From Loktanella sp. IMCC34160 (GTDB taxonomy: Bacteria > Pseudomonadota > Alphaproteobacteria > Rhodobacterales > Rhodobacteraceae): DNA of 64,000 bases. Location of the stretch: assembly GCF_004145845.1 (NCBI RefSeq), contig NZ_SELP01000002.1:310001-374000 (forward strand), given 5' to 3'. Below, in pieces: positions 4,360-6,964 of the stretch. Both the position numbers and the translations under genes were made by a program. Positions within the stretch are counted from its first letter, which is position 1; every line of letters starts with the position of its first letter. Under the pieces are notes generated by a model. It did no database searches. It saw only the letters and a program-made list of their open reading frames with translations, and was not told the origin of the DNA.

Positions 4360-4530
4360 AAACAGAGGTGCCGCCGTGAGGCGGAGAATTGGGAAGCCGG
4401 TGAAAGGCCGGCACTGCCCCCGCAACGGTAGGGACGGGAAGGTCATGACGGATACCACTGGGTCGCCCCCGGGAAGGTGTCATGACCGGGCCGACGGGCC
4501 CCGTCCAAGTCCGGAAACCAGCCTCTGAAA
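4360..4530 (+). promoter_or_regulatory. Cobalamin (B12) riboswitch
   Basis: All conserved blocks of the cobalamin aptamer appear in order on the + strand: GAGGTGCC (4365-4372), GGGAAGCCGGTGAAAGGCCGG, the core CTGCCCCCGCAAC with GGTA, and the B12-box equivalent AAGTCCGGAAACCAGCCTC ending near 4525. The region just downstream can form two hairpins: a GCGG...CAGG/CCTGCCGC stem followed by TTTCCCTT (about 4557-4592), and GCCGC/GCGGC immediately before the ribosome binding site of the next gene. Either could be the expression platform. It faces the Rieske oxygenase at 4641, with no other gene between them. Confidence 0.93.
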
Positions 4531-4640
4531 ACGTCAACCGCGGGCGGCGGTCTTGGGCGGCTGGTCAGGTTTTGCCTGCCGCTTTCCCTTGTCCGCCAAA
4601 CGCTTAACCGATGCCGCGGGGCTGCGGCGGAAAGGCAACC

Positions 4641-5876
4641 ATGCTGCGTGACAGCGAGATTCTGACCAAATTGATGACCCGGGCCCCGGCCCATTCCCTT
4701 GAACAGGCGCTGTATACCGATCCGGGCGTGTTCGATCTGGATATGCGCCAGATCTTCTATCGCAACTGGCTGTTCGCGATCCCCGCCTGCGAGATCCCGA
4801 AGACCGGAAACTATGTCACCCACAAGGTCGGCCCCTATAATGTCATCATCGTGCGCGGCGGCGACGGCGAGGTGCGCGCCTTTCACAACGCCTGCCGTCA
4901 TCGCGGGTCGGTCGTCTGCAACGCCAGGAAGGGAACCGCGCCGAAACTCGTCTGTCCCTATCATCAATGGACCTACGAACTGGATGGGTCGCTGCTGTGG
5001 GCCCGCGACATGGGCGCGGAATTCGACGCCTCGCGTCATGGGCTGAAGCCGGTTCATTGCCGCAACCTTGCCGGGCTGATCTATATCTGCCTTGCCGATG
5101 AGGCGCCCGATTTCGACATCTTCGCCGATGTGGCGCGGCCCTATCTGGCCCCGCATGATCTAAACGACGCAAAGATCGCGTTTGAATCCTCGATCGTTGA
5201 GAACGGCAACTGGAAGCTGGTCTGGGAAAACAACCGCGAGTGCTATCACTGTGGCGGCAATCACCCGGCCCTGTGCCGTACCTTCCCCGAAGACCCGTCG
5301 ATCACCGGGATCGAAGGCGGCGAAACCCCGCCCTTCATGCAGGCCCATATGGACCGCTGCGAGGCTGCGGGCTTTCGGTCGGCGTTCCACCTTTCGGCCT
5401 CGGGGCAATACCGTCTTGCCCGTGTTCCCCTGAACGAAGGCGCGGAAAGCTATACGATGGACGGTAAGATCGCGGCGACGAAGAAGCTGGGTCAGATCCC
5501 GTTCAACGACGCGGGCAGCCTGTTGAAGTTCCATTACCCGACCACCTGGAACCATTTCCTGTCGGATCATTCCATCGTCTTCCGCGTCACCCCGCTGACC
5601 CCGACCACGACCGAGGTCACGACCAAATGGCTGGTGCACAAGGACGCGGTCGAAGGGGTCGATTATGACCTCGACCGGCTGACCGAGGTCTGGATCGCCA
5701 CCAATGACGAAGACCGCCGCGTGGTCGAAGACAACCAGCAGGGCATCAATTCGCCCGCCTATGTGCCCGGTCCCTATTCGGCCCGGCAGGAAAGCGGCGT
5801 GATCCAGTTCACCGATTGGTATGCCCGCACCCTTGTGCAGGCCCTGACCGGCAAAACCCTGATCGCGGCGGAGTAG
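4641..5876 (+). CDS. gbcA: Rieske oxygenase, glycine betaine monooxygenase-like (GbcA)
   Basis: Alpha subunit of an aromatic-ring-hydroxylase-type Rieske oxygenase. In the GbcA branch it removes a methyl group from glycine betaine as formaldehyde, using O2 and electrons from the partner reductase. It is 411 residues. The Rieske cluster ligands are Cys85-x-His87 and Cys105-x2-His108. The mononuclear iron motif E-x2-H-x4-H is Glu200, His203, His208. The ATG at 4641 follows GGAAAGG; an upstream ATG at 4611 is less likely. The reductase follows 2 bases after the stop. A related betaine (for example stachydrine) is a possible alternative substrate. Confidence 0.85.
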
Positions 5877-5878
5877 AC

Positions 5879-6964
5879 ATGGGACTTCAAGCAAATTTTA
5901 CCGCCCTTGAGGAAGCGGCCATCTGGTCCGACAGCGAACCGCTGGAATGCGTGACCGTGGTGCCCGAGGCCCCCAATACTGCCACCTTCAGCTTTCGCGC
6001 CGCCTCTGGCGCGACCTTCCGGTTCCGGCCCGGTCAGTTCCTGACGCTGGAGTTGCCGGTGCCGGGGGAAACGATCTGGCGCACCTATACAATCTCGTCC
6101 TCGCCGTCGCGGCCGCTGTCGATCTCGGTCACGGTCAAGGCGCAGGAGGGCAGCATCGGCACCCGCTGGATGCTGGACCATCTGCGGCCGGGGATGCGGA
6201 TCAAGGCCAGCGGTCCGGCGGGCATCTTCACCTTGCCGCAGCCGCCTGAAGGGAAATACCTGTTCATCTCGGCCGGGTCGGGGATCACCCCCAGCCTGTC
6301 GATGACCCAATACCTGTTCGACCGGGGGCAGTCGCCGGATATCTGCGTGGTCAACTGCGCCCGCAGCCCGTCCGAGATCATCGCCCGCCGCCAGTTCGAG
6401 CACATGGCCGCCCGGGTTCCGGGGATCAAGATCCATTGGGTCGTGGAACAGGACGACCCCTATGGCGTCTGGACCGGCTATCGGGGCCGTCTGACCCAGA
6501 TCATGCTGGGGATGATGGCGCAGGATTACATGGACCGCGATGTCTATTGCTGCGGGCCAGAGCCGTTCATGCAGGCCGTGCGCGAAATGCTGATCGGCCT
6601 TGGCTATGACATGAGCCGCTACAATCAGGAAAGTTTCCAGGCCCCGGTCGAGGAAGCGGCTGACGCCCCGGAACTCGACGACGTGATCCCCGAGGCGGAC
6701 GCCCTTGCCGAGGTGATGTTCAGCCTGTCGGGCAAATCCGCCACCTGCCGGGAAACCGATACGGTGTTGTCCGTGGCCAAGGCGGCGGGGTTGAACATTC
6801 CGTCTGGCTGCACCTTCGGCATCTGCGGCACCTGCAAGGTCCGCAAGACCGAGGGCGAGGTGGTCATGGTCCACAACGGCGGCATTTCGGACGATGACAT
6901 CGAGGCGGGTTATATCCTTGCCTGCTGTTCGAAACCGCAGGGCCGGGTCGCCATCGACGTCTGA
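5879..6964 (+). CDS. gbcB: Ferredoxin reductase subunit, GbcB-like (FAD / NAD / C-terminal 2Fe-2S)
   Basis: A 361-residue electron-transfer partner of the preceding Rieske oxygenase. The order is an FNR-type FAD domain (RTYTISSS, 68-75), an NAD(P)-binding domain (SAGSGITP, CCGPEPFM) and a C-terminal plant-type 2Fe-2S domain with Cys311, Cys316, Cys319 and a fourth cysteine at 349 or 350. It starts 2 bases after the gbcA stop, so it is cotranscribed and under the same riboswitch. The domain order matches GbcB-type hybrid reductases. The physiological substrate assignment follows that of the oxygenase. Confidence 0.87.
   Translation: MGLQANFTALEEAAIWSDSEPLECVTVVPEAPNTATFSFRAASGATFRFRPGQFLTLELPVPGETIWRTYTISSSPSRPLSISVTVKAQEGSIGTRWMLDHLRPGMRIKASGPAGIFTLPQPPEGKYLFISAGSGITPSLSMTQYLFDRGQSPDICVVNCARSPSEIIARRQFEHMAARVPGIKIHWVVEQDDPYGVWTGYRGRLTQIMLGMMAQDYMDRDVYCCGPEPFMQAVREMLIGLGYDMSRYNQESFQAPVEEAADAPELDDVIPEADALAEVMFSLSGKSATCRETDTVLSVAKAAGLNIPSGCTFGICGTCKVRKTEGEVVMVHNGGISDDDIEAGYILACCSKPQGRVAIDV

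Follow-up and report, generated by a model that had tools for sequence, protein, structure and literature searches.

In the DNA analysed here (the window, a 64,000 nt stretch of Loktanella sp. IMCC34160, contig NZ_SELP01000002.1) a full-length cobalamin riboswitch is located directly in front of a two-gene operon for a Rieske oxygenase and its reductase. Both the element itself and its long-standing association with the oxygenase/reductase operon are firmly established. We consider it rather probable that the element is a cobalamin-sensing OFF switch on a B12-independent, O2-dependent demethylase of betaine type, which would act as a B12-sparing backup of B12-dependent demethylation. Within this proposal we infer the ligand response, the direction of the switch, the substrate and the physiology; the main doubt about such an isozyme switching lies in the substrate. 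Cobalamin riboswitches are known for the control of B12 supply and of a few core isozymes, and the B12-independent isozymes MetE and NrdAB/NrdEF belong to their known targets. Among the top matches listed for open-licence papers, none describes a Rieske betaine demethylase preceded by a cobalamin riboswitch; early comparative genomics of B12 regulons may mention one.

The aptamer matches the Rfam family RF00174 over the full length of the model (span 1-189) with 103.8 bits and an E-value of 6.8e-25, the gathering score being 31.5 bits. According to cmscan it is the single cobalamin riboswitch of the window and lies on the plus strand. The covariance search suggested by the initial annotation thus confirms the full aptamer which had been read there from the letters, and in agreement with it no gene intervenes between aptamer and operon. 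The distance of 110 bases given there has to be corrected to 100 nt, counted from the aptamer end to the oxygenase start at position 4641. This start was chosen among two candidates; homologs open with MLRDSE, and an alternative upstream ATG at 4611 overlaps with a predicted hairpin.

The 5' regions of related oxygenases, a survey of which had likewise been suggested, were inspected in two partly overlapping sets (e.g. L104 and L204 are identical; L and G numbers denote loci and genomes of our sets). The family survey comprised 394 genomes, 87 of them with an ortholog at an E-value of 1e-90 or better, and the 91 hits gave 90 scored loci, as the second copy in G306 has no score of its own. A same-strand cobalamin aptamer precedes the oxygenase at 33 of the 90 loci, whereby its core ends 116-203 nt from the start. 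Rfam confirms 22 of these 33 among the matches listed; the remaining 11 rest on a motif scan and the 15-mer TGCCCCCGCAACGGT. In the set of named genomes the riboswitch was found at 27 of 80 loci, all 27 of them Rfam-confirmed, with carriers in Ruegeria, Shimia, Sulfitobacter, Phaeobacter, Marivivens, Roseibium, Hoeflea, Labrys, Rhizobium, Shinella, Rhodobacter and others. Plasmid copies with riboswitch exist in the cultured strains Ruegeria sp. TM1040, Phaeobacter gallaeciensis DSM 26640 and Tritonibacter mobilis. The same scan detects no riboswitch on two further plasmid copies, namely in Paracoccus sp. MA and before the gene of Sinorhizobium meliloti 1021 that is identical to the stachydrine demethylase Stc2.

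Alignment of 29 aptamer copies from Rhodobacteraceae and Rhizobiales reveals long invariant stretches. A tree of 174 orthologs was built using FastTree, in which 53 of 160 inner branches are open, L115 (riboswitch-bearing) and L176 (which has a stop) are not contained, and L208 and L246 were scored as riboswitch-free, both being positive in other scans. On this tree the riboswitch requires 18 changes compared to about 50 with shuffled labels, a clustering that is favoured by near-copies. Stc2 sits in a separate clade of 39 rows, in which no intact riboswitch was detected. A covariance model made from the 29 copies identifies aptamer remnants before the seemingly riboswitch-free orthologs L095, L110 and L210, the latter being the one remnant in the Stc2-side clade. 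Hence, the pattern is in part explained by riboswitch loss from an earlier state in which the element was present, and horizontal transfer may have contributed to the distribution. A genome-wide RF00174 scan with stricter filters covered 80 of the 87 ortholog-bearing genomes (all except G002, G006, G026, G066, G101, G107 and G352); among the matches listed, only G334 and G250 have none at all. In G334 the aptamer in front of the oxygenase (L110) is decayed, and this genome matches neither TIGR02370 nor MTTB.

All 61 aptamers found before the oxygenase, some copies of which are identical, have GCAACGGT and CCGGAAACCAG in common, whereas the two occur together in none of 48 other riboswitches at the loci compared. 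Placed on the Rfam structure by reading and without a pair-count test, this subtype shows two apparently compensated pairs and AAA instead of AGA in a joining stretch which we take to be J6/3. The riboswitches of MetE and NrdAB/NrdEF share with the window the aptamer family, the apparent OFF-type anatomy and a B12-independent enzyme downstream, but differ by lacking this subtype and by acting on methionine or deoxyribonucleotide synthesis rather than on a methylated-osmolyte oxygenase. The counts of 61/61 and 0/48 would suggest a subtype unique to the oxygenase operon. This is ruled out, because the same core was found before other genes. Of the 394 genomes, 53 contain the 15-mer, at 56 places in total; the reversed pattern, used as control, was found at 7 places in 6 genomes. 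The oxygenase operon accounts for 33 of the 56. Among the other 23, 11 exhibit the core CCGGAAACCAG and are all confirmed by Rfam, 9 have CCGGAGACCGG (L283 is Rfam-confirmed and G003 also appears in the Rfam scan) and 3 have neither. The combination of CCGGAGACCGG with GCAACGGT (L283, L295, L300, L302, L304) stands before a membrane protein that reads as a CbiM-like cobalt-uptake permease.

The oxygenase consists of a Rieske (PF00355) and a Ring_hydroxyl_A domain (PF00848), as is the case for Group V enzymes, the reductase of FAD_binding_6, NAD_binding_1 and Fer2. Glu200, Cys201 and Cys204 form the E-C-x-x-C motif of Group V and are invariant in 13 aligned orthologs. According to PMC10952381, a Glu bridge together with Cys-x-x-Cys by the catalytic iron is unique to some quaternary-ammonium Group V Rieske enzymes. 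On the sequence level a quaternary-amine demethylase is well supported, with glycine betaine as the likely substrate. GbcA and GbcB are the best curated models for the pair; however, the oxygenase reaches 510.8 bits for NCBIfam GbcA (NF058607) at a curated cut-off of 670, and the reductase 361.4 bits for GbcB at a cut-off of 500. The GbcA cut-off is reached by none of 13 relatives scored (one of them, L181, is a partial frame), and the NCBIfam models do not separate the sub-clades of the oxygenase. The nearest solved structure is PDB 3n0q with 733 bits; among solved relatives with an assigned function Stc2 comes closest, with 644 bits. Since the curated cut-off is missed and Stc2 is the closest solved enzyme of known function, the name GbcA is too firm. 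The pair can be called gbcAB-type, as in the initial annotation, but by curated cut-offs it is not GbcAB.

A comparison to known systems refines this picture. GbcAB, the glycine betaine monooxygenase of Pseudomonas and Chromohalobacter, is likewise a two-component system of Rieske protein and reductase; unlike GbcAB, the pair in the window is located behind a B12 riboswitch. Stc2 (PDB 3vca, 4qup), which acts on proline betaine, shares the Cys-x-x-Cys motif of Group V but belongs to another clade, and no riboswitch was detected before the identical pSymA gene (L278). Four candidate specificity positions of the oxygenase (51, 101, 171 and 329) set the riboswitch-bearing rows apart from the Stc2 clade. 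The oxygenase of structure 3n0q originates from Ruegeria sp. TM1040 and a riboswitch precedes its gene (L276, the product of which is identical to 3n0q in the first 36 alignment residues). It is about 75% identical to the oxygenase of the window. The PDB title of 3n0q names no function; for this solved structure the finding supplies a hypothesis.

The host genome (G000; 3.77 Mb, 99.99% complete) was searched for a corrinoid-dependent counterpart. It holds seven MTTB matches, whereby MTTB figures here and below refer to matches and not to verified genes. Moreover it encodes a single MtgC-like corrinoid protein, which is 233 aa long, contains both B12-binding domains and stays below the curated MtgC cut-offs (198.8 of 370 bits for MtgC_2, 170.9 of 310 for the other model). 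A BHMT/MtgE-like homocysteine methyltransferase is located 2.2 kb from the MtgC-like gene (602 bits at a BHMT cut-off of 338). The two neighbours recall the methionine synthase/betaine demethylase that roseobacters possess in split form (PMC12478193). According to that paper, MtgC and MtgD are essential for glycine betaine demethylation in Ruegeria pomeroyi; the term riboswitch occurs once in its main text, in a reference title on SAR11 glycine riboswitches. MtgBCD would be the proposed B12-dependent counterpart for the same first step, but is a corrinoid methyltransferase whose chemistry is unrelated to that of the window oxygenase. The machinery for B12-dependent demethylation seems to be in place. 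The counterpart postulated by the initial annotation is made likely by the MTTB matches and the MtgC-like and BHMT/MtgE-like proteins, with the reservation of the missed MtgC cut-offs. Its interpretation as isozyme switching keeps the riboswitch, the operon and the likely counterpart, while the name GbcA is dropped. The alternative given there, that betaine is spared as methyl donor when B12 is plentiful, found no separate support.

Surveys for MTTB, MtgC, MetE and CbiC/CobH covered 80 of the 87 ortholog genomes, with G006, G066, G101, G107, G249, G320 and G352 left out. The MtgC-like protein is present in 31 of 33 riboswitch-bearing genomes, and the two without it are 73% and 84% complete. 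SoxA-type sarcosine oxidase, a candidate for the later demethylation steps, exceeds its cut-off in the host and in 33/33 riboswitch-bearing genomes, the scan being restricted to these 33. On average 4.4 MTTB matches per genome were counted with riboswitch and 2.0 without (Mann-Whitney p 4e-6, phylogeny ignored).

The same findings could fit a B12-repressed demethylase for another substrate, such as proline betaine, a carnitine-like compound or another quaternary amine, the partner then being a different member of the MttB family instead of the glycine-betaine MtgB. The proximity to Stc2, the missed GbcA cut-off and the unassigned substrates of the seven MTTB matches point in this direction. 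Yet the Stc2 clade lacks any detected intact riboswitch and shows one remnant, in L210, and the gene neighbourhoods differ: 23 of 57 loci without riboswitch carry a gene for an OYE-type oxidoreductase, compared to 0 of 33 with riboswitch. One OYE-type member matches OYE models below their cut-offs. We therefore regard another substrate as a serious but unlikely explanation. By reading, a LysR-like regulator accompanies 20 loci without riboswitch and one with, a TetR-like regulator 12 and none, respectively. Riboswitch-free loci often resemble dedicated catabolic operons under transcription factors, whereas riboswitch-bearing loci hardly do.

With respect to B12 supply, the host genome contains one further RF00174 match, on contig C16, in front of an apparent B12 uptake operon (by reading btuB, a TonB-dependent receptor, and a BtuFCD-like transporter). 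CbiC/CobH has no match in the host genome. De novo synthesis of B12 is thus probably absent and import probably needed, which makes shortage plausible in the host. A full MetE is not found there either; a single 415-aa frame matches in part, with 30 bits, above the low Pfam cut-off. Full MetE-like matches (>300 bits, frames about 760 aa) are confined to G118 and G286 among the 80 genomes. These data also bear on the idea that the operon supports B12 synthesis, either from betaine via glycine to aminolevulinate or by corrin methyl groups, and is repressed together with B12 biosynthetic genes. A higher yield of B12 in industrial production has been reported for betaine (PMC8123684), and riboswitches with related core precede cobalt uptake-like genes (by reading) in other genomes of the family. 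However, CbiC/CobH is unmatched in the host and six more riboswitch-bearing genomes (7/33, compared to 9/47 without riboswitch), so that such a role is very improbable in general and is rejected for the host genome.

The features of the operon and its leader are listed in the table below. The kissing loop between L5 and L13 is an established part of cobalamin riboswitches (PMC9600662). In the window, the predicted hairpin at the ribosome site offers a loop complementary to L5, and its core forms with pair probabilities of 0.42 to 0.95 depending on the stretch that is folded. L5-complementary hairpins within 70 nt of the start exist at 28 of 61 loci, compared to 11% in mononucleotide shuffles. 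Hairpins with a GGG loop within 45 nt past the aptamer exist at 45 of 61 loci, compared to 28% in such shuffles, which preserve the single-base make-up only; the one in the window is disfavoured with a pair probability of about 0.01 or less in single-sequence folds. For folding and hairpin counts, the start codons of relatives were guessed from the first residue of the query and may be a few codons off at some loci. As a hairpin with a G loop complementary to L5 abuts the Shine-Dalgarno sequence, the natural reading is that translation is switched off with ligand, and the position of the hairpin suggests this direction.

Features of the riboswitch-controlled operon in the window
Feature	Position	Strand	Basis
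Cobalamin riboswitch aptamer RF00174, subtype with GCAACGGT and CCGGAAACCAG	4349..4540	+	cmscan, 103.8 bits
Loop L5 (CCCCCG), expected kissing-loop partner of L13	4417..4422	+	Rfam structure line, letters checked
Possible hairpin ACCGC-GGGCG-GCGGT right behind the aptamer	4537..4551	+	loop GGGCG complementary to part of L5
Predicted hairpin TGCCGC-GGGGCT-GCGGCG adjoining the Shine-Dalgarno sequence	4612..4629	+	loop GGGG complementary to L5
Probable Shine-Dalgarno sequence GGAAAGG	4629..4635	+	sequence
Rieske oxygenase subunit, quaternary-ammonium (Group V) type, 411 aa	4641..5876	+	domain, profile and structure matches
Reductase subunit, FAD/NAD plus 2Fe-2S, 361 aa	5879..6964	+	domain and profile matches

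In the proposed mechanism the aptamer would close in the presence of B12. L5 would then kiss the loop of the G-rich hairpin beside the ribosome site, by which translation of the oxygenase/reductase pair would be blocked. At high B12, demethylation would proceed via the corrinoid system of MtgB/MtgC type, feeding methionine synthesis too. At low B12 the oxygenase would be made and take over the first demethylation step, such that the scarce cofactor is spared.

A neutral leftover or mis-sited riboswitch without regulatory effect on the operon might account for the patchy occurrence and the remnants in relatives, but is highly improbable in view of the long invariant stretches in 29 copies, the core shared by 61/61, the similar distance to the gene and the L5-complementary hairpin at the ribosome site. 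Activation by B12 instead of repression has a published precedent in a corrinoid riboswitch (PMC10653944), but is hardly credible here with an L5-complementary hairpin adjoining the Shine-Dalgarno sequence and with neighbouring riboswitches placed before B12-independent isozymes.

Several observations weigh against a B12-sparing OFF switch on a betaine demethylase. The missed GbcA cut-off leaves the substrate uncertain. The MtgC-like protein is nearly as common in genomes without riboswitch (43/47), so that its co-occurrence with the riboswitch hardly discriminates (Fisher p 0.15), and a phylogeny-controlled comparison of MTTB matches in six independent pairs yields nothing significant. The cut-off of TIGR02370 is exceeded in none of the 80 genomes, hence MtgC-like is a label derived from score and length. 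In addition, the aptamer of the close relative G261 is decayed or diverged, although this genome possesses the MtgC-like protein and four MTTB matches. Regarding the expression platform, minimum-energy folds of some window stretches pair the ribosome-site hairpin otherwise, and the RNAalifold consensus is weak (-10.4) or, in two groups, empty. Finally, at two loci (L148, L151) a riboswitch precedes nrdI-nrdE next to a riboswitch-free oxygenase. Presence of MTTB or MtgC was also considered as a discriminating test and turned out to be weak.

Further cobalamin riboswitches were found in relatives, some of them in the vicinity of the operon. At five riboswitch-bearing loci a neighbouring one stands before an NrdI-like gene (Pfam-confirmed in L111), with nrdE next in three. 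In two riboswitch-bearing genomes one stands before MesX-MesD (L305:4731-7090, L306:5168-7536), the identity of which is given by Pfam (MesX PF08908) and NCBIfam in L305 and by reading in L306. MesX-MesD make methionine with O2 and without B12, according to PMC7857596. They apparently constitute another O2-dependent, B12-independent enzyme under B12 control. Both nrdI-nrdE and MesX-MesD represent B12-independent alternatives in the same regulatory style as the oxygenase operon. At L064:6363-10482, a cobalamin riboswitch and nrdI-nrdE-nrdF-like genes are located directly downstream of a riboswitch-controlled oxygenase operon.

A bolder extension would be a B12-sparing regulon of O2-dependent enzymes in Rhodobacteraceae and relatives, in which this demethylase, class Ib ribonucleotide reductase and MesX-MesD are jointly switched on as B12 falls. 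B12 control would be ancestral to the whole Rieske betaine-demethylase family and would have disappeared from Stc2 and other dedicated catabolic enzymes. The altered joining stretch would tune the aptamer to one cobalamin form, e.g. methylcobalamin, thereby reporting the state of the methyl-transfer pool. Taken as a whole we consider this speculative and quite improbable.

In marine and plant-associated bacteria, such a riboswitch would connect the supply of B12 with betaine and one-carbon metabolism, since the enzyme behind it probably acts on osmolytes of an abundant class. If our proposal is true, a B12-free backup induced at low B12 would matter for betaine turnover in the carrier bacteria. 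Caution is indicated by a published ocean data set in which gbcAB homologs are of low abundance. The cultured carriers Ruegeria sp. TM1040 and Phaeobacter gallaeciensis DSM 26640 make the idea directly testable.

A small protein of about 90-100 aa is encoded right behind its own cobalamin riboswitch at L111:11653-11952, L167:7284-7583 and 11 other loci (L284, L286, L287, L289, L290, L291, L294, L296, L299, L301, L303). Eleven of these riboswitches are Rfam-confirmed, and most copies of the protein are recognisably homologous, whereby the two copies scanned have no Pfam match. L111 and L167 also belong to the loci at which the oxygenase has its own riboswitch. By reading, the gene of the small protein follows a uvrD/pcrA-like gene at several loci; in L111 it is succeeded by a part of methionine synthase. 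At L284:913-1041 Rfam gives a match to ar14, a small RNA of Alphaproteobacteria. Four tRNA genes are located on the plus strand of the window at 44234-46551, and those at 46371 and 46478 score alike.

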